Below, piece by piece: positions 21,878 to 33,052 of a stretch of 64,000 nt of DNA. The translations under genes and the position numbers were made by a program. Origin of the DNA: Clostridia bacterium DTU025. GTDB lineage: Bacteria > Bacillota > DTU025. The stretch is from positions 82,390 through 146,389 of the forward strand of contig LFSP01000037.1 in NCBI GenBank assembly GCA_001513145.1. The letters are read 5' to 3'. The notes under the pieces were generated by a model, which had not been told where the DNA came from, searched no databases, and worked only from the letters and a program-made list of their open reading frames with translations. The stretch's first letter is position 1. The number at the start of each line of letters is the position of its first letter.

Positions 21878-22963
21878 CTAGAAGTCGATCTCGAACCGGG
21901 GTATGGCCCCCAGTCCGACCTGGGATTCGCTCTTGATGTCGATCTTCCACCCCGTGATCTTGGCAGCAAGGCGGGCGTTTTGTCCCTCGCGTCCGATGGC
22001 CAGCGACAGCTGGTAGTCTGGCACCACCACCAGCGCGATCTTGCTCAGGAAATCCGGCCTCACCTCTACCACCCTGGCGGGGCTCAGCGCGTTGGATATG
22101 AACGTCGCGTAGTCCTCGCTCCACGGTATGACGTCGATCTTCTCGCCTGCCAGCTCGCTGACGATGGCCTGTATGCGTGCGCCCCTGGGCCCCACGCACG
22201 ACCCCACAGGGTCCACGTTGGGGTCGTGGGCCACCACAGCCACCTTCGACCTGGCCCCAGCTTCCCTCGCGATGGCCTTTATCTCCACTACGCCTTCGGC
22301 TATCTCCGGAACCTCCAGTTCCAGCAGGCGCTTGAGCAGCCCCGGATGGGTGCGGGACACCAGCACCATCGGGCCTCTCGTGGTCTTCCTTACCTCTATA
22401 ACGTACAGTTTCAGGCGCTGGCCGGTGACATAATTGTCCACCGCCATCTGCTCCTGCGGAGGGAGCGTCGCCTCCGTCTTGCCCAGGTCTATGATGACGT
22501 TCCTCTGCTCGACCCTGCTGACGGTGCCGGTGACGACATCCCCTTCCCTGCTGGAGAACTGCTCGTAGAGCATGCCCCTCTCGGCCTCTCGGATCCTCTG
22601 TACCACCACTTGCTTCGCCGCTTGGGCGGCGATGCGGCCGAACTCCTTGGGAGTCACCTCGGTCTCCACCACGTCTCCCGGTGCGTACATGGGATCCAGC
22701 TGCCTGGCCTCCTCAACGGAGATCTCGGCCTTGGGGTCGGCCACCTCCTCCACCACGGTGCGCCTGTTCATCACCAACACCTTGCCGGTATCGGGATCGA
22801 TCCCCACCCGTACGTTCTGGGCAGAACCATAGTGCCTCTTGAACGCCTGAACCAGAGCGGCCTCAATGGCTTCAAGAAGGACCTCTTTGCTTATGCCGCG
22901 CTCCCTCTGAAGGTCGTCGAGGGCACGCACTATCTCCAGTCCATCGTTAGGATTCATCGTCAA
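21878..22963 (-). CDS. nusA: Transcription termination/antitermination protein NusA
   Basis: S1 and KH domains; DPNVDPVGSCVGPRGARIQAIVSELAGEKIDVIPWSEDYATFISNALSPA. Confidence 0.97.
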   Translation of the reverse strand: MTMNPNDGLEIVRALDDLQRERGISKEVLLEAIEAALVQAFKRHYGSAQNVRVGIDPDTGKVLVMNRRTVVEEVADPKAEISVEEARQLDPMYAPGDVVETEVTPKEFGRIAAQAAKQVVVQRIREAERGMLYEQFSSREGDVVTGTVSRVEQRNVIIDLGKTEATLPPQEQMAVDNYVTGQRLKLYVIEVRKTTRGPMVLVSRTHPGLLKRLLELEVPEIAEGVVEIKAIAREAGARSKVAVVAHDPNVDPVGSCVGPRGARIQAIVSELAGEKIDVIPWSEDYATFISNALSPARVVEVRPDFLSKIALVVVPDYQLSLAIGREGQNARLAAKITGWKIDIKSESQVGLGAIPRFEIDF

Positions 22964-23429
22964 GAACCTCCTCGACGGGCACCGCCAGCCTGGCGTGGGC
23001 TATCTTCGACATCGGGATGCTGTACTGGGTGCCGTCGACCTCAATCTTCACGTTTTCGCCATCAACCCCCAGAAGACGCCCCTCAAACCGCCTTCTTCCC
23101 CGGAATTCCGAGAACGTGCTCACCAGAGCCCATCTTCCTGCAAAGTCCCTAAACTCCTGAAGGCTCTTCAGGGGTTTCTCGCCAGACGATGACACCTCCA
23201 GTATGTAGCTCTGCGGGATGAAGTCCTCCTCGTCCAGCACCGCGCCGACGACCTCCGAAAGGTCGGCGCAGTCGTCGATGGCCACGCCCCCTGCCTTGTC
23301 GATGTAGATCCTCAGGTACCAATGGCCCGAATCCTGCACGAACTCGGTGTCCACCACTTTCAGGCCCAGCGAGCTGGCCGAGGAGCGGGCGATCTCACTG
23401 GCTCTGGCCTCAATACGGCGACGATCCAT
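22947..23429 (-). CDS. rimP: Ribosome maturation factor RimP
   Basis: LGLKVVDTEFVQDSGHWYLRIYIDKAGGVAIDDCADLSEVVGAVLDEEDFIPQSYILEVSSSGEKPLK; upstream of nusA. Confidence 0.94.
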   Translation of the reverse strand: MDRRRIEARASEIARSSASSLGLKVVDTEFVQDSGHWYLRIYIDKAGGVAIDDCADLSEVVGAVLDEEDFIPQSYILEVSSSGEKPLKSLQEFRDFAGRWALVSTFSEFRGRRRFEGRLLGVDGENVKIEVDGTQYSIPMSKIAHARLAVPVEEVLDDES

Positions 23430-23618: not shown

Positions 23619-26600
23619 TCAGAACAGCGACAGCTGATCAGTGTCGGGAAGGTCGCCGATGGCTCCCATCTCCGCTAGGGCGTCCACCTGCGAACGGGTG
23701 AGCCGAGTCCTATCCCGTAGATCCTGTTTCGAGGTGAACGCCCTCTCCTGCCTGGCCTCCACGACGCTCTCCGCCGCGGCGACTCCCAGACCCGGCACCG
23801 CCGCAAGGGGGGTGCGGATCGCAGGCCCCTCGACGGCGAAGGCTCTCGCCTCGGACCGGACTATGTCGACTGGAAGGATCCCTATCCCCCTGAGTACTGC
23901 CTCCGCAGCTACCTCGTATATGGTGGCGAGCTCCCTGTCTCTCGCGGAGGCGTCAGGCTTCTCGTCTGCGGACTGGCTTGCCGCCAGGAGTTCCTGAGCA
24001 GACATGAACGCAATGCGCGGGTCGAAGTCGGACGCGCGGATGCTGAAGTACACGGCGTAGAACTGCACAGGGTGGTGCACCTTGTAATACGCTATCCGGA
24101 AGGCCATCATGACGTACGCCGCCGCGTGCGCCTTCGGGAACATGTACTTTATCTTGTTGCACGAGTCCAGGTACCATTCTGGAACCGCGTGCTCCCGCAT
24201 GAGGCGGGCGTCGTCCTCGGTGAGGCCCTTGCCCTTCCTCACGCGCTCCATGATCCTGAAGGCATCGCTGGGCGCCAGACCCCAGCCTATCAGCGCGTTC
24301 ATTATGTCGTCGCGGCACGCGATGACCTGCCCCAACCTGGCCTTTCCGGACCTTATGAGGTCCTGGGCGTTGTTCAGCCACACGTCCGTGCCGTGCGACA
24401 GCCCGCTTATCCTGATGAGCTCGCCAAAGGTTGTAGGCCTGGTCTCCTCCAGCATCCCCCGTACGAACCTGGTGCCGAACTCCGGAATGCCCACCGTGCC
24501 CACGGTGAATCCCGAAGACGTGTCCAACCCCAGCGACTCTGGCCCGGAGAACAGCGCCATAGTGGCTGGGTCATCCATGGGGATGTTCTTCGACGGCAGC
24601 CCCGTCAGGTCCTCAAGCATCTTGATGGCCGTGGGGTCATCGTGGCCCAGAAGGTCCAGCTTGAGCAGACAATCGTGGATGGTCCTGTACTCGAAATGCG
24701 TCGTGACCACGTCGGAGCCTTTGTCGTTGGCCGGGCGCTGTATAGGCGTGAACTCGTGCACGTCCCTGCCCTTCGGCACGATCATCAGCCCGCCGGGGTG
24801 CTGGCCGGTGGTGCGCTTCACCCCTGAGCAGCCGCGGGCCAGCCTAAGCTGCTCGGCATGGCGGAGCGTCAGACCCCTCTTCTCAGCGTACAACTTCACG
24901 TATCCGAAGGCCGTCTTCTCAGCGATGGTGGCGATGGTGCCCGCCCTGAACACGTGGTCGGCGCCGAACAGCTCCTCCGCGTACTTGTGTATGGTCGACT
25001 GGTACTCCCCTGAGAAGTTCAGGTCGATGTCGGGCACCTTGTCACCGTCGAACCCCATGAAAGTCTCGAAGGGGATGCTCTGCCCGTCCTTCACCATGTC
25101 CGCGCCGCAGTCGGGGCATGCGGCATCAGGAAGGTCGTAACCCGACTCCACAGCGATCCCGTGGTCGAACAGACTGAACCTGCACTTCGGGCAGCGATAG
25201 TGCGGCGGCAGCGGGTTCACCTCGGTGATGCCGCACATGGTGGCCACCAGCGACGATCCAACCGATCCCCTGGAGCCCACCGGGTACCCGTCTGATACCG
25301 ACTTGTGCACCAGTCTGGCAGCGATGTCGTAGTTCACCGCGTAACCATTGCCGATTATGGCCTCAAGCTCTTTCTCCAGCCTGGCCCTGACCACTTCCGG
25401 CAGCGGATCGCCGTATAGCTCACGCGCCCTGGCGTAAGCGTTGCTCCTGACGGCCTCCTCGGCCCCGTCGATCCTGGGGATAGCAAGCTCCTTCGGAACC
25501 GGGCAGAGCTGCTCAACCATGTCGCACACCCTGAGCGGGTTCACCAGCACCACCTCATTGCACGCCTCCTCGCCCAGGAAGGCGAACTCCTCCATCATCT
25601 CATCGGTGGTGCGGAAGTAGAGAGGCGCCTGCTTATCCGCGTCGACGTAGTCCTGCTTGGCCATGAGGATACGCCTGTACACCTCATCGGCAGGGTCAAG
25701 GAAGTGCACGTCCCCGGTGGCCACCACCGGGATGCCTAGCTGAGAGCCGATTCGGTATATTCTGGCGATGATTCTCTCTATGTCCTGAAGACTGCCCAGC
25801 TTACCGCTGCGCACCAGGAACTCGTCGTTTCTCGGAGGCATGATCTCCAGGTAGTCATAGAAAGACGCGATCCTGGAAAGCTCGGCGTCGTCGGCGCCCT
25901 GCAGCACGGCCCTGTAAACCTCGCCTGCGGCGCACGCCGAACCGATGAGCAGGTGCTGCCTGGCGGCAACCAGTTCGCTGCGGAGGATCCTAGGGTGCCT
26001 GTAGAAATGGTTCAGGTGCGACCAGGAGACAAGCCTATAGAGCGCCTGCAGGCCCTCACGGTTCATGGCCAGGATCGTCACGTGGTACGTGGGCGCGTCG
26101 TCGACGGCCGAGTCGGCTAGGTATCCCTCAATGCCGTACACGACCTTCACGCCATGCTTCTTACCTGCGGAGTACGCCTCCGGGAAGGACTGCACCACGC
26201 CGTGATCCGTGATGGCTATGGCAGGATGGCCCCACAGGGCCGCCCTCCTCACCGCCGCCTCCACGTCGCACACCGAGTCCATGGCGCTCATCTTGGTATG
26301 AAGGTGCAGCTCCACACGCTTCACCGGGGCGTTGTCGGCCCTCTGTGGGGGCGAGTACGGCACCACGTCCTGCACCGAGAGGACCGGCTCCCGAGCGTAC
26401 TGGTCGTACTGCATATCGCCGCGTATCGCCACCCATGTTCCGTCCTTGAGGTCAAGGAGCGGATCGTCGGGGTCGCAGAAGCACTTGCACGCCACCGAGT
26501 CGGTGCGGTCTGTGATGTTGAAGGTGAGGATGGTGCAGCCTGACTTGGTGGAGCGCCGCTCCACCCCAAACACCTCGCCTGCGCACACCACCTTGCGGTC

Positions 26601-27398
26601 CGCCTCGCCCAGCGACGAAATGGGCTGCGGCGCGACGGTGAACATCCTGCCCCTGATGGCACCGGGATCCGGCTTTCGCGCCCTGCGCCTGCGCCTGCGC
26701 TCCGGCACTTCGCCGTCGCCTGCCGCGGATCCGTCGCCACCTGCGCCCTTCGCGGCGTCGGCGTCACGCGATGGCACGTTCACCCTCGCCTGAAGGCAGG
26801 CCGCTTCCTCCGCCTCCTCCGCAGGCGTAACCTCCGGTTCCTCCGGTTCCTCGAACTCGCCTATCTCTATCGACACGCGCGGCGGGTCTGACTGACACGT
26901 ACACGCGAAGGCGGCTGCCACCACCTGGACGCAGCCTCGTTCCAAGAGCTTGTCGCGCTGCACGTCGCTGGGCACTTCCAGCAGCACTTCGTCGCCGCGA
27001 GCCCTGCACCTAGCCTGAGCCAGCCAGATCCACAGCGCCGGATTCTCCCGAGCGATCCTCTCCCTGACGCTGGGCCATGCTGCCTCGAAGGCCGAGGGCT
27101 CCGGCACAGGGTCGATCTCGCGCCCCGAGAACACCAGTCTGACGCAGCCGTCTACCCCGGCGGCGTCTGCGATGGCCCGCTGGATGGCTTCGGCGCATCC
27201 CGGATCCACGTCCGCCGGGGCGCAGATGTGAACCGTCCAGTCTCCAGAATCAGCGCAGATACAAACCTTCTGTACGGCGCAGCCGGCCGGAACTCCAGAG
27301 GGCATCTGTCGCCCGGCGCGGCGGAACACGTTCTCCAAGCTTGAGCATTGGTCTGACGGCACTACCACGAACACTTGAGACAACCAGGTCACTCCCAA
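23619..27398 (-). CDS. polC: DNA polymerase III alpha subunit, PolC type, apparently lacking the inserted 3'-5' exonuclease domain
   Basis: OB region, PHP motifs VELHLHTKMSAMD...AITDHGVVQSFPEAY, Pol motifs DGDKVPDIDLNFSGEYQ, RTTGQHPGG, KAHAAAYVMMAFRIAYYK; C-terminal QLSLF clamp-binding motif. 1259 aa. Confidence 0.96.
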   Translation of the reverse strand: MGVTWLSQVFVVVPSDQCSSLENVFRRAGRQMPSGVPAGCAVQKVCICADSGDWTVHICAPADVDPGCAEAIQRAIADAAGVDGCVRLVFSGREIDPVPEPSAFEAAWPSVRERIARENPALWIWLAQARCRARGDEVLLEVPSDVQRDKLLERGCVQVVAAAFACTCQSDPPRVSIEIGEFEEPEEPEVTPAEEAEEAACLQARVNVPSRDADAAKGAGGDGSAAGDGEVPERRRRRRARKPDPGAIRGRMFTVAPQPISSLGEADRKVVCAGEVFGVERRSTKSGCTILTFNITDRTDSVACKCFCDPDDPLLDLKDGTWVAIRGDMQYDQYAREPVLSVQDVVPYSPPQRADNAPVKRVELHLHTKMSAMDSVCDVEAAVRRAALWGHPAIAITDHGVVQSFPEAYSAGKKHGVKVVYGIEGYLADSAVDDAPTYHVTILAMNREGLQALYRLVSWSHLNHFYRHPRILRSELVAARQHLLIGSACAAGEVYRAVLQGADDAELSRIASFYDYLEIMPPRNDEFLVRSGKLGSLQDIERIIARIYRIGSQLGIPVVATGDVHFLDPADEVYRRILMAKQDYVDADKQAPLYFRTTDEMMEEFAFLGEEACNEVVLVNPLRVCDMVEQLCPVPKELAIPRIDGAEEAVRSNAYARARELYGDPLPEVVRARLEKELEAIIGNGYAVNYDIAARLVHKSVSDGYPVGSRGSVGSSLVATMCGITEVNPLPPHYRCPKCRFSLFDHGIAVESGYDLPDAACPDCGADMVKDGQSIPFETFMGFDGDKVPDIDLNFSGEYQSTIHKYAEELFGADHVFRAGTIATIAEKTAFGYVKLYAEKRGLTLRHAEQLRLARGCSGVKRTTGQHPGGLMIVPKGRDVHEFTPIQRPANDKGSDVVTTHFEYRTIHDCLLKLDLLGHDDPTAIKMLEDLTGLPSKNIPMDDPATMALFSGPESLGLDTSSGFTVGTVGIPEFGTRFVRGMLEETRPTTFGELIRISGLSHGTDVWLNNAQDLIRSGKARLGQVIACRDDIMNALIGWGLAPSDAFRIMERVRKGKGLTEDDARLMREHAVPEWYLDSCNKIKYMFPKAHAAAYVMMAFRIAYYKVHHPVQFYAVYFSIRASDFDPRIAFMSAQELLAASQSADEKPDASARDRELATIYEVAAEAVLRGIGILPVDIVRSEARAFAVEGPAIRTPLAAVPGLGVAAAESVVEARQERAFTSKQDLRDRTRLTRSQVDALAEMGAIGDLPDTDQLSLF

Positions 27399-28018
27399 TG
27401 AACCAGGGACTTGACGACCTCCCAGTACATCTTGGCCCGCTCCGTGACGCCCTTCACGGCGCCCATCTTCTCCTCTTTCATCACGTGGGTCAGGTGCGGG
27501 AGCTTCACCTCAACCACCTTCAGGCCCAGGTTCTTGGCCCGCCGGGTGAGGACAGCCTCCACCCCGAAGCGGGAGATATCGAGCTCAAGGCCTGCCAGGG
27601 CCTCTCGCCTCACTGCCCTCTGGCCCGAGAGCCACGGCGTGATGGCCTGCGCCAGGTCTGTGGCCACGCGGCCGTCGTCGAACAGGCCGACGCTCATGTC
27701 GGCGCTCCCCGACATCACCGGCTCAAGAAGCGCCATGATGTGGTCTTCGGTGAGCCCGATGAGATCGGCGTCGAGCAGCAGTATGATCTCGCCATCGGCC
27801 GCCTCCACTCCGCGGGCGACCGCTCCCCCCTTGCCGACGTTGCACGGTAGGCTAACCACGGTGGCGCCGTGGGACTTGGCTACCTCAGCGGTGTCGTCCT
27901 GGGAGCCGTCGTCCACCACTATGACTTGGTGCACGGCCGTGCAGCGTACGAGGGCGCTAACCACATGGCCAACCCGGGGTCCCTCGTTATACGCCGGGAC
28001 CACGGCCGATACTGTCAC
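27389..28018 (-). CDS. Family 2 glycosyltransferase
   Basis: [21 protein letters not shown]...[21 protein letters not shown]...LLLDADLIG. Confidence 0.9.
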
Positions 28019-29774
28019 CGTGCCGCACCTCCCCGGGCTGAAGCAGTGCGAGCTCCGTCTGAACCAGGTCGCACACGCGCTTGGCCGCCTTGTCCAGATC
28101 GATCATGGCTACCTCTCCTGCGCGTCGCAAGGCCACCTCCACCTTATTCTGAGCCAGGCCCTTCGCTCCTATGGTTACCTTTATCGGGAAGCCTATCAGG
28201 TCGGCGTCCTTGAACTTCACTCCAGGCCTCTCGTCGCGGTCGTCCAACACCACCTCGACGCCCATTGACAGGAGCTCGCTATACAGCCGCTCCGCCGCCT
28301 CCATGTGCGTTGCCTCGGTCACGTTCACGGGAACCATCACGACCTGGTAAGGCGCCACCGACATCGGCCAGATGATGCCGTCCTGGTCGTGGTGTTCCTC
28401 TATGATCGCCGCCACGCAGCGGGTGATGCCTATGCCGTAGCAGCCCATCAGCATGAGGCGCTCCTGCCCCTCTTCGTCCAGGAACTTGCAGTTCAGCGAC
28501 GAGCTGTACTTCGTACCCAGCTTGAACAGGTGGCCCACCTCGATGCCGCGGGCTCCCTCAAGAGGAGCTCCGCACTTGGGGCATGCGTCGCCGGCGACCA
28601 CGGTGCGGATATCGGCCACCTGGTCCGCCTCGAAGTCAACTCCGTAGCTTACCCCGACGATGTGGGCGTCGGCCTGGTTGGCCCCGACCACCCCGTCGGT
28701 GACCCCGACGACTTCATGGTCAGCTATGGTGCGCACGTTGCGACGCAGGCCTATGGGCCCGGCGAAGCCCACCGGCGCTCCGGTGACCTCCTCGATGACC
28801 TCAGCCGGCGCCAGTTCCAGCTCGGCGCAGCCCAATACCCTCCTGAGCTTGATGTCGTTGACGTCCCTGTCGCCGCGGATCATGGCGGCCACTGGCTCCC
28901 CGTCTGCCAGGTAGATCATGGTCTTCACCATCTGCTTCGGGCTGACCCCGAGGAAGCCGATGAGCTGGTCGATGGTGCGGATCCCGGGAGTGGGCACGGT
29001 GCGAGCCTGGCCATCTCGCGCCTCGCTCTGCGCGGGGCGCTGGGGCACCGCTGCCTCTGCCCGCTCGTCGTTGGCTGCGTATCCGCACTTGTCGCAGAAC
29101 ACTATTCCCGCCTCGCCCACATCCGAGACCACCATGAACTCGTGGTTCACTGACCCTCCGATGGCCCCTGCGTCGGCCTCAACCACCTTGTACGTAAGCC
29201 CCATCCTTGAGAAGGCCCTGCAGTACGCGGTGTACATCTTCCTGTAGCTGACGTCGAGGCCCTCCTCGTCCCGGTCGAAGCTGTACGCGTCCTTCATGAT
29301 GAACTCGCGGGCACGCATCACGCCGAACCGCGGCCGTATCTCGTCGCGGAACTTCGTCTGTATCTGGTACACGATCTGCGGCAGCTGCCGGTACGACCGC
29401 ACCTCGTCGCGGACGGTGATGGTGGTAATCTCCTCGTGGGTGGGCGCCAGGCACATCTCGCGGCCGCCCCTGTCCTTCAGGCGGAACATCTCGCTGCCGT
29501 AATCGAAGTACCTGCCGCTCTGCTTCCATATCTCCGCAGGCTGTATCGCCGGGAACAGCGCCTCCTGTGCCCCCTGCCCGTCCATCTCCTGCCTGACGAT
29601 GGTCTCGACCTTCCGGATGGCCCGGTATCCCAAAGGCAGGTATGAGTACACGCCCGAAACGGTCTTTCGCATCAGACCCGCCCGCAGCATCAGCTGATGG
29701 CTGGGGATCTCCGCTTCGGAAGGCACTTCCCTCAGCGTTGGAGCAAACATCTGCGACATCCTCATGCGTATCAC
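27987..29774 (-). CDS. proS: Proline-tRNA ligase (start probably 29756)
   Basis: [63 protein letters not shown] editing domain and class II aaRS motifs. Confidence 0.97.
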
Positions 29775-30856
29775 AACTCCTTACTCCCGGGCTGAACCCG
29801 CTTGGCCGCGGCCTCCTGGTAAACCGCCTCCATCAGCGCGTCAACCATGTGGGCGCTATCTACTCTCTTCACGATCTGTCCCCGGCGGAACACCAGTCCG
29901 CACCCTCTGCCGCACGCCAGCCCCACGTCGGCGTCGGCCGCCTCGCCCGGCCCGTTCACCTCGCACCCCATCACCGCCACAACCAGCGGCACGTCCAGGT
30001 GCTGAATCTTGGCGCGGACCTCCTCAGCTATGGCCTCTATGTCGGCCCTCGACCTTGCGCACGTGGGGCACGCCACCAAAGTGGGGCCGAAACTCCTCAG
30101 GCCCACGGCGGAGAGTATCTCTCGCCCTGCCTGCACTTCTGCTATTGGATCCCCTGTGAGACTGACCCTGATGGTATCGCCGATGCCCTCCGAAAGCAGG
30201 ATCCCGATGCCCACCGCAGACTTGACCAGTCCTCCTGGAGGGGGGCCTGCCTCCGTTATCCCGACGTGCAGCGGGTAGTGCACCCGCTGGGCCAAGACGC
30301 GGTAGGCCTCAACGGTGCGGGGAACGTCAGACGCCTTCATGGACACGACGATGCTCTCGAACCCGGCCTTCTCCAGGAGGCCAACGTGCCACAGCGCCGC
30401 CTCAGCCATGGCCCTGGGAGTGCGCCCGTAGGCCTCCACCAGGCGCCTGGGGAGGGAGCCGGCGTTCACGCCCACGCGGATGGGAACGCCTCTGTCGTTG
30501 GCAGCCCTGGCAAGCTCGGCCACGCGAGCCTCCGAGCCTATGTTGCCGGGGTTGATGCGCAGCTTATGTATGCCGGCCTCGAGCGCCATCAGCGCCAGCC
30601 TGTAGTCGAAGTGGATGTCGGCCACCAGCGGCACCGACGTTGCCGCGAGTATTTCCGGCAGGGCCTCGGCGGCCTCCTGGTCCGGCACAGCCAACCTCAC
30701 TATCTCGCAGCCCGCCGCCGCGAGTTGATTCACCTGCTCTGCGGTGGCGGCCGCGTCCCGCGTATCGGCTGTGGTCATGGACTGAACGCTCACCGGGGCT
30801 CCGCCGCCGATGGTCACGTCTCCCACTCTTACACCTATGGTAGCACGTCGGGGCAC
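29771..30856 (-). CDS. ispG: 4-hydroxy-3-methylbut-2-en-1-yl diphosphate synthase
   Basis: [47 protein letters not shown]...[12 protein letters not shown] Fe-S motif. Confidence 0.96.
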
Positions 30857-30869
30857 GATATCACCACCG

Positions 30870-31919
30870 TCAGAGCCTGGGCACTATCATCCTCGAAATG
30901 TCGCTCACCGTGGCGTACACCATCAGCAGCACCAGTAGGGCCAGGCCCACGAACCTCAGAACCCCCTCGAACTCGGGCTGAAGCGGGCTTCCCTTGATCC
31001 CCTCCAGGACCAGCAGAAGCACCCAACCGCCGTCAAGGATCGGCACTGGCATCAGGTTCACCAGCCCGAGGCTGATGGATATCAGCGCTATCAGCATCGC
31101 CAGACTGGCGATGCCTGCCCTGGCAGCCTGAGCCGACATCCCGGCGATACCCAAAGGCCCCGACACGTCAGCCTCTGCTCTGCCGGTGAGGGCGGCTATC
31201 AGCATGGATACGGTGCTGTCGACGACTCCGATGGTGTATGCCACCGCCTCCGCCGCGGTGCCGCGCACTCCGCCCTTCACGGGCCGCTCCGCCAGCCCCA
31301 CGCCGATCCTGCCCACCTGGGCGTCTGGATCGTACTCAGGAACCACCGTTATGCTCACCCGCGTCTGGCCCCGCAGCACCTCCACCTCCACGGGCCGGTC
31401 CCAGCTGGTGGAGACTGCGCTCACGAAACCCGCCACGCCAGCCACGGGCTTGCCGTTGACAGTGAGTATCGTGTCGCCCGCGGCGAACCCGGCTCGCTGC
31501 GCCGGACTGTCGGAAAACACCTCAGTGATGCTGGCCATGGGCACGCCATAGGCGCCGAACAGCACGATCAGGATGACCACCGCCAGCACGAAGTTCATGA
31601 TGGGCCCGGCGGTGACGATGAATATCCTCTTCCAGATGGGCTTGCCGTGAAAGCTCTTGGGATTCCTGGCAGACGCCTTACGGTCGGCGCCTTCCTCGTC
31701 GTCCAGCCCCACCAGACGGCACATCCCCCCGAGAGGCAAGAGCCTGATGGAGTACACCGTCTCTCCTCGCTTCACCGACCATATCTTCGGGCCGAACCCC
31801 AAAGCGAACTCGTGAACCCCCACGCCGGAAAGCCTCGCCGCCAGGAAGTGCCCCAGCTCGTGCACGAAGACGACGATGCCGAGGACGACTATGAATGAGA
31901 GGGCGTACAAGCGCCACAC
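30870..31919 (-). CDS. rseP: RseP-like site-2 membrane metalloprotease with PDZ domain
   Basis: FVHELGHFLAARLSGVGVHEFALGFGPKIWS; PDZ region; NLMPVPILDGGWVLLLVLE. Confidence 0.95.
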   Translation of the reverse strand: MWRLYALSFIVVLGIVVFVHELGHFLAARLSGVGVHEFALGFGPKIWSVKRGETVYSIRLLPLGGMCRLVGLDDEEGADRKASARNPKSFHGKPIWKRIFIVTAGPIMNFVLAVVILIVLFGAYGVPMASITEVFSDSPAQRAGFAAGDTILTVNGKPVAGVAGFVSAVSTSWDRPVEVEVLRGQTRVSITVVPEYDPDAQVGRIGVGLAERPVKGGVRGTAAEAVAYTIGVVDSTVSMLIAALTGRAEADVSGPLGIAGMSAQAARAGIASLAMLIALISISLGLVNLMPVPILDGGWVLLLVLEGIKGSPLQPEFEGVLRFVGLALLVLLMVYATVSDISRMIVPRL

Positions 31920-33052
31920 CTGCCTCGCACGTATTCTCTGGCCCAGGAGTCTGCCGAGAGGATCTGGCCCAGCGTGGGCCGGGGCACCGGAGCCGCGCTC
32001 CTCATGGCGTCAGCCACGAGAGGAGCGATGTCGCGGAACTCGATTCTGCCCTCAAGGAAGAGCCTCACCGCTTCCTCGTTGGCGGCGGACATCACAGCCG
32101 GCGCGACTCCACCCAGCTCCAGGGCGATGTGCCCGAATCCGGCCCCCGGGAACCGCCGAAGGTCAGGAGGCTCGAAGGTGAGCTCAAGCTTTGACGCGAA
32201 GCTCATCGGCTGCACCGGCGACGGAAAGCGCTCCGGGTACGTCAGCGCGTACTGGATGGCGCCTCGCATGTCGGCGGAGCCCAGCTGGGCTACGATGGAG
32301 CCGTCCACGAGCTCCACCATGGAGTGGACGACGCTCTGTCGATGGACCACCACCTCGATCTGGTCGGGGGTGACGTCGAACAGCCAGCGCGCCTCCACCA
32401 CTTCCAGCGCCTTGTTGATCATGGTGGCGGAGTCGACGGAGATCTTCGGGCCCATGCGCCAGTTAGGATGGGCAAGCGCCTCCTCCACGGTGATGCCTGA
32501 GAAGTCAGCGCGATCCCGGAAGGGCCCGCCGGAGGCGGTAAGGATTATCCTCCTGAGCGCCTTTCTATCCTGGCCGGCAAGACACTGCCACACCGCCGAA
32601 TGCTCGCTGTCAACTGGGCGGATGGTGGCGCCACGCCTGGATGCCGCCTCTAGCACTAACGCGCCTGCAGCCACAAGAGTTTCCTTGTTCGCGAGAGCAA
32701 CGTCCCGCCCTGCCTCGATGGCGGCGAGCGTCGGCTCGATTCCGGCGGCCCCCACAAGTGCGTTCACAACGATGTCGGCGCCGTCGTCGGCCGCCGCCTC
32801 CGTAACCCCGCGGGCTCCGAAGAACACCTTGATGCCCGGGTCGAGCTTGGCAAACTCCTGGCGCGCCTGCTCTTCCAGGGACGCGTCACCGACAGCCACT
32901 AGGGCGGGCCTGAACTCCCGGGACTGCTGAACCAGGAGTTCCAGGTTCCTGTAGGCGGCTAGGGCCCGGACCTTAATGCCCAGGCGCTTGGCGACATCCA
33001 GTGTCTGCCGCCCGATGGACCCGGTTGAACCCAGCACTGAGATGGCTTTCAT
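31889..33052 (-). CDS. dxr: 1-deoxy-D-xylulose-5-phosphate reductoisomerase
   Basis: ISVLGSTGSIGRQTLDVAKRL; VRPVDSEHSAVWQCL-type motif; TASGGPFRD; MGPKISVDSATMINKALEVVEARWLF. Confidence 0.97.
   Translation of the reverse strand: MKAISVLGSTGSIGRQTLDVAKRLGIKVRALAAYRNLELLVQQSREFRPALVAVGDASLEEQARQEFAKLDPGIKVFFGARGVTEAAADDGADIVVNALVGAAGIEPTLAAIEAGRDVALANKETLVAAGALVLEAASRRGATIRPVDSEHSAVWQCLAGQDRKALRRIILTASGGPFRDRADFSGITVEEALAHPNWRMGPKISVDSATMINKALEVVEARWLFDVTPDQIEVVVHRQSVVHSMVELVDGSIVAQLGSADMRGAIQYALTYPERFPSPVQPMSFASKLELTFEPPDLRRFPGAGFGHIALELGGVAPAVMSAANEEAVRLFLEGRIEFRDIAPLVADAMRSAAPVPRPTLGQILSADSWAREYVRGRCGACTPSHS

Follow-up and report, generated by a model that had tools for sequence, protein, structure and literature searches.

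An exonuclease (Exo) domain is frequently presented as a hallmark of PolC, and the initial annotation of the stretch of DNA analysed here (64,000 nucleotides from Clostridia bacterium DTU025, referred to as the window) proposed that its polC gene lacks this domain. The locus raises the question of whether this absence is real and, if so, how such a polymerase could edit misincorporated 3' ends. The gene and its surroundings comprise the following features:

23619..27398, minus strand: polC, an Exo-less PolC-type DNA polymerase III alpha of 1259 aa (ORF, Pfam, NCBIfam)
26364..26591, minus strand: OB-fold domain (Pfam, aa 270-345), preceding PHP in the typical PolC order
26127..26312, minus strand: first half of PHP, aa 363-424, with ligands H365, H367, D374, H399 and E424 (Pfam and site alignment)
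26085..26126, minus strand: 14-residue linker GYLADSAVDDAPTY, aa 425-438, at the Exo insertion site of Bacillus-type PolC
25539..26084, minus strand: second half of PHP, aa 439-620, with ligands H439, C489, D563 and H565 (Pfam and site alignment)
24228..25451, minus strand: Pol3 palm/thumb/finger core, aa 650-1057, with catalytic PDIDLNFSG (Pfam)
23622..23636, minus strand: C-terminal QLSLF, aa 1255-1259, which we take to be a clamp-binding-like motif (sequence)
27987..33052, minus strand: proS, ispG, rseP and dxr, upstream of polC (names inferred from sequence)
21878..23429, minus strand: nusA and rimP, downstream of polC (names inferred from sequence)

The affiliation of the protein with PolC is clear from profile searches, in which the NCBIfam models NF001688 and TIGR01405 reached 1444 bits (cut-off 873) and 1341 bits (cut-off 1043), respectively, and DnaE models scored 240 bits at most, far under the PolC models. 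Pfam places PHP at residues 363-512, Pol3 alpha at 650-918, the finger domain at 922-1057 and HhH at 1171-1250, while the OB domain (270-345) scores below threshold with 25.4 bits against a cut-off of 27 bits. The protein therefore shows the domain arrangement that defines PolC, with OB before PHP, a Pol3 core and a C-terminal (HhH)2. An RNase_T/DnaQ domain was found nowhere in the 1259-aa ORF by Pfam, and in the genome search the TIGR01405 match is broken exactly at the Exo site (query residues 5-174 and 378-1211, with 175-377 missing). Together with the short junction between E424 and H439, these results bear out the claim that the Exo domain is missing. The linker had been described as about 10 residues long and devoid of a DxE motif; no such motif is present between the two ligands, but the length is 14 residues, standing where Exo-bearing PolC has about 195-215. 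Among the PolCs compared, linkers measure 13-34 aa in Exo-less enzymes and 198-217 aa in Exo-bearing ones, and the 14 residues also fall inside the range of the DnaE loops at this position (9-29 aa). All nine PHP ligands (HHDHEHCDH) are present in the site alignment, so the flanking metal motifs are indeed intact; however, the aspartate that serves as third ligand is D374 (motif HTKMSAMD) and not the one of the ITDH motif. The polymerase motifs are likewise intact, which supports a clean absence over decay, and an AlphaFold model of residues 355-1080 (726 residues, pLDDT 84) adopts a PolC-like fold whose best PDB match is PolC 3f2c (TM 0.92). The translations give the locus order dxr-rseP-ispG-proS-(glycosyltransferase)-polC-rimP-nusA, a canonical polC neighbourhood that identifies the gene as the polC orthologue rather than an additional copy. 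From the intact motifs and this location, we infer that the enzyme is still replicative.

An assembly or frameshift error that removed about 550 bp would mimic such a domain loss, and the distribution of the window genome (G000, a 2.0 Mb MAG of 96.7% completeness encoding PolC and two DnaE proteins) over 52 contigs speaks for this reading. However, the same short linker is found in the independent MAGs UBA1393, THP_Bin_8 and STF2_119, whose proteins share 61-69% identity, and every PolC with a readable junction in families f1-f3 matches TIGR01405 up to 172-175 and resumes at 378-380. As none of the PolCs in this GTDB order whose junction can be resolved carries Exo, the identical junctions of the orthologues rule out the deletion that the initial annotation had considered, and the probability of an artefact is negligible. 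At the same site, the Exo-less PolC of G076 (L187) carries an 85-residue low-complexity linker.

The initial annotation implied that this architecture is novel, but Exo-less PolC was already described by Timinskas et al. (2013; PMC3919608), who reported it for 6% of PolCs and 16% within systems combining PolC and DnaE1, occurring only in Clostridia and Negativicutes besides one extra copy in Thermotogae. The window PolC belongs to this published variant; new are the survey frequencies and the comparison of PHP and Exo states. A sample of 300 genomes drawn across the GTDB phylum contained PolC in 214. The Exo domain is carried by 86 of these 214 genomes (the profile being matched through Exo) and clearly missing in at least 73, which represent 34 families. 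Of the remaining 55, the majority are probably Exo-less, though at least three look like fragmented copies of Exo-bearing PolC. In this species sampling of the phylum, Exo-less enzymes account for at least one third of PolCs and probably for more than half.

The direction of change was approached with a FastTree phylogeny of 166 PolCs from which the insert columns had been removed. The Exo state changes nine times on this tree, and three of these changes are forced by well-supported branches. The insertion site is identical in every Exo-bearing PolC, which favours a single insertion followed by several losses, although the tree alone cannot orient the changes. The term "excision" used in the initial annotation fits such losses from an Exo-bearing ancestor, with the same caveat about gain versus loss. 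For the window lineage, comparison establishes the absence, and we infer its direction: the Exo domain would have been lost in the ancestor of the whole order, leaving a short DnaE-like loop.

The state of the PHP site was compared between both groups. The full ligand set is present in 91/91 Exo-less PolCs and in 65/75 Exo-bearing PolCs (Fisher p = 0.00025, not corrected for the tree). The other 10 Exo-bearing enzymes have incomplete ligands, mostly through a D-to-N exchange as in the PolC of G. kaustophilus; an N in place of D563 is found in this enzyme and in PolC 9qpc. Ligand loss happens only twice on the tree, and an independent-pairs test gave an uninformative p = 1, so that a tree-corrected complementarity of PHP and Exo was rejected and the association is neither tree-robust nor strong independent evidence. 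Moreover, the PHP motif is intact in most sampled Exo-bearing PolCs too, and its conservation need not mean editing.

Proofreading by the PHP domain is nevertheless probably the best mechanism for the window PolC. In the explanation that we favour as a whole, with a probability of about 0.62, a single orthologous Exo-less PolC acts as replicase and its 3' ends are edited by its own PHP domain. Misincorporated 3' ends would be removed in cis by the trinuclear metal site of PHP, as in M. tuberculosis DnaE1, and MutS-type mismatch repair may back up this editing. The DnaE1 of this genome also carries the remaining PHP ligands, with its two N-terminal histidines encoded ahead of an in-frame stop that must be recoded; an intact DEDDh exonuclease that could act in trans was not detected in the window genome. 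DnaE enzymes with all nine ligands have PHP exonuclease activity, and in the Exo-carrying PolC of G. kaustophilus, one PHP ligand is mutated and PHP exonuclease is reported to be absent (PMC5636811), a combination that fits PHP editing in Exo-less enzymes. Additionally, S. aureus PolC polymerises rapidly when engineered to lack NTD and Exo (PMC3656037), which makes loss of Exo compatible with replication. A PolC without any proofreading, in which PHP has a structural or other job and fidelity results from base selection and mismatch repair, appears unlikely: the window genome contains two MutS-family genes and the PHP domain of E. coli DnaE is inactive (PMC5636811), but the nine-residue site is kept in every one of the Exo-less PolCs compared.

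A third option is proofreading in trans, performed together with PolC or DnaE1 by a separate DEDDh exonuclease of about 205-212 aa (PRK09182-like). The search of the window genome for stand-alone exonucleases and a second dnaE, as proposed in the initial annotation, returned both DnaE proteins but only one RNase_T match, a 126-aa ORF that ends soon after motif II and is devoid of motif III:

G000:C26, L005:1471-1851: truncated DEDDh exonuclease gene, intact in the relatives G001 (L110) and G005 (L108)

The copies of these two relatives retain the DVETTG, HN..FD and HRAMDD motifs, and RNase_T proteins occur in other Exo-less genomes, some of them close to PolC Exo (G025, G013), which favours proofreading in trans. 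Against it, the copy in the window genome is a relic that stops after motif II, an intact DEDDh exonuclease was not found in this genome (though a dnaQ may be missing from the 97%-complete MAG), and DNA_pol_A_exo1 gave no match there. Likewise, no RNase_T domain was detected (E <= 0.001) in 21 Exo-less genomes that represent 11 families and all reach at least 90% completeness, including G008 and G009 of the same order (97-98% complete). Among the three sources of fidelity that the initial annotation had listed, namely PHP, a separate DnaQ-like protein or none, the stand-alone exonuclease is thus improbable, its only DEDDh homologue being truncated, and PHP proofreading is favoured. Two side observations concern related proteins. 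The second DnaE of the window genome (G000:C18:55078-55842; L002, L224) is close to the error-prone DnaE2 model and, at one PHP ligand, reads TNNVH instead of TNDVH. Separately encoded proteins of about 180-325 aa (G025:C7:43919-44467, G013:C78:16810-17439, G029:C20:4044-4568 and G038:C53:419-973) give strong matches to the Exo section of the PolC profile, and some of these genomes have an Exo-less PolC; they may represent a PolC Exo domain turned into a separate subunit.

The dnaE1 gene of the window genome is interrupted by an in-frame TAG between HLHLHTQYSLL and DGAC (stop at C18 23073-23075, minus strand):

G000:C18:23073-23102, minus strand: dnaE1 stop region (L214; relatives L215-L220, L222, L223 and L239-L242)

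The gene starts with GTG AGG GAG TTC GTT CAT CTG CAT CTG CAT ACG CAG TAC TCC CTC CTG TAG GTG GAC GGG GCG TGC, which translates to VREFVHLHLHTQYSLL-stop-V-DGAC. The stop splits the PHP ligands, with the first two histidines before it and the aspartate after it, and the frame that follows is the original one. The same interruption is found in 13 species of two sister orders, comprising 8/8 genomes of f1, G008 of f2 and 4/4 sister-order genomes examined (G012 and G282 of f4, G261 and G303 of f109), while dnaE1 of G009 (f3) contains no stop. In the DnaE1 tree, the 13 carriers and G009 form a clade with 99% SH-aLRT support, which implies either a single origin followed by one reversal or two separate origins, and the identity among carrier proteins, down to 58%, indicates that the stop is old. 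The codon is TAG in four species (G000, G012, G282, G261) and TGA in nine. The preceding TAC TCC CTC CTG is invariant in 9/9 f1/f2 species and earlier codons vary synonymously, a hint of selection at the nucleotide level. Immediately ahead of the start codon, the 13 carriers share an unusually long conserved Shine-Dalgarno-like stretch, GGGGGTGGTC / GGAGGTGATC.

These data also bear on the possibility that the main replicase, with proofreading, is DnaE1 and that PolC has an accessory role. The remaining PHP ligands are kept in dnaE1, and the sampled f4 and f109 genomes, 4 of the 13 carriers, gave no PolC match and have DnaE1 as the only replicase found. For the window genome, this arrangement is quite improbable, as polC occupies its canonical locus with intact motifs and the in-frame stop would limit dnaE1 expression unless recoding is efficient.

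How the stop may be passed was considered from the codons around it. The codon that follows is CTT (2), CTA (2), CTG (2), TTG, ATG (3), GTG (2) or CCG. Take-off and landing codons are identical in 4/13 species (CTT/CTT twice, CTG/CTG twice), share the first two bases in 2/13 (CTT/CTA) and two of three bases in the other seven. This CTN-stop-NTN geometry resembles the stop hops of ribosomes on synthetic constructs, whose product is two residues shorter than that of readthrough and for which natural occurrences were not known (Atkins et al., 2016; PMC5009743); none was found in the later literature searched. Our tentative preference is a natural stop hop, in which peptidyl-tRNA-Leu would jump from CUN over the stop to the next codon and translation would resume at DGAC, yielding SLLDG and restoring the PHP metal site of DnaE1. 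This spacing is exactly the SLLDG that was read without variation in other DnaE1s. Programmed readthrough is a somewhat less probable rival and would add two residues to this motif. Two observations speak against the hop: take-off and landing codons are identical in only four species, and a special 5' RNA hairpin is not supported, as folding did not exceed that of synonymous shuffles, one species excepted. Some other route past the stop is unlikely. Reinitiation was rejected as a general explanation, since the stop is followed by CTT or CTA in four species and by CCG in another, and selenocysteine insertion was rejected on the TAG of four species, though tRNA-Sec (anticodon tca) is present in G000, G008 and G012 (L292, L290, L291). 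Global stop reassignment is unlikely, as most of the long ORFs in the window terminate with TGA and TAG (a tally of ORFs, not annotation). Ribosomal protein L9 suppresses hopping in E. coli, and its loss was discarded with L9 present in 13/13 carriers; in G004 (C99:21062-21452), the L9 gene is split into two frames, which may be a sequencing error. Under the stop hop, the fidelity of the lineage would rest on a PHP-only PolC and a DnaE1 dependent on recoding.

The PolC observation is thus right and real, but old, and PHP-only proofreading is its most likely consequence. A 2026 survey of complete genomes describes three active proofreaders in most Clostridia, a picture with which our counts sit uneasily, given that some genomes with an Exo-less PolC have no detectable DEDDh exonuclease at all; PHP-only proofreading by PolC is directly testable. 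The dnaE1 stop, possibly more important than the PolC finding, would in 13 species represent either the first stop hop known from nature or an unusual case of programmed readthrough affecting a housekeeping gene.

Among known systems, the closest are the Exo-less variants of Timinskas et al. (2013; PMC3919608), which share OB, PHP, Pol3 and (HhH)2, the lack of Exo and a DnaE1 partner with the window PolC; nothing defining differs, except that the loss is order-wide here and the phylum frequency lies far above 6-16%. Canonical PolC (B. subtilis; G. kaustophilus 3F2B) has the same domain order and aligns structurally at 57% identity (TM 0.92), whereas the window enzyme is without Exo and keeps D563 where G. 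kaustophilus has N. In the engineered, active S. aureus/G. kaustophilus PolC without NTD and Exo, the Exo domain was removed at the same loop (PMC3656037); the window PolC is, in contrast, natural and retains an N-terminal region, and its PHP site is intact. Finally, the PHP exonuclease of M. tuberculosis DnaE1 has the identical HHDHEHCDH set, with its E ligand likewise followed by a short loop (PMC5636811), whereas the window protein is a member of the PolC family whose ligands are known from its sequence and whose PHP exonuclease is putative.
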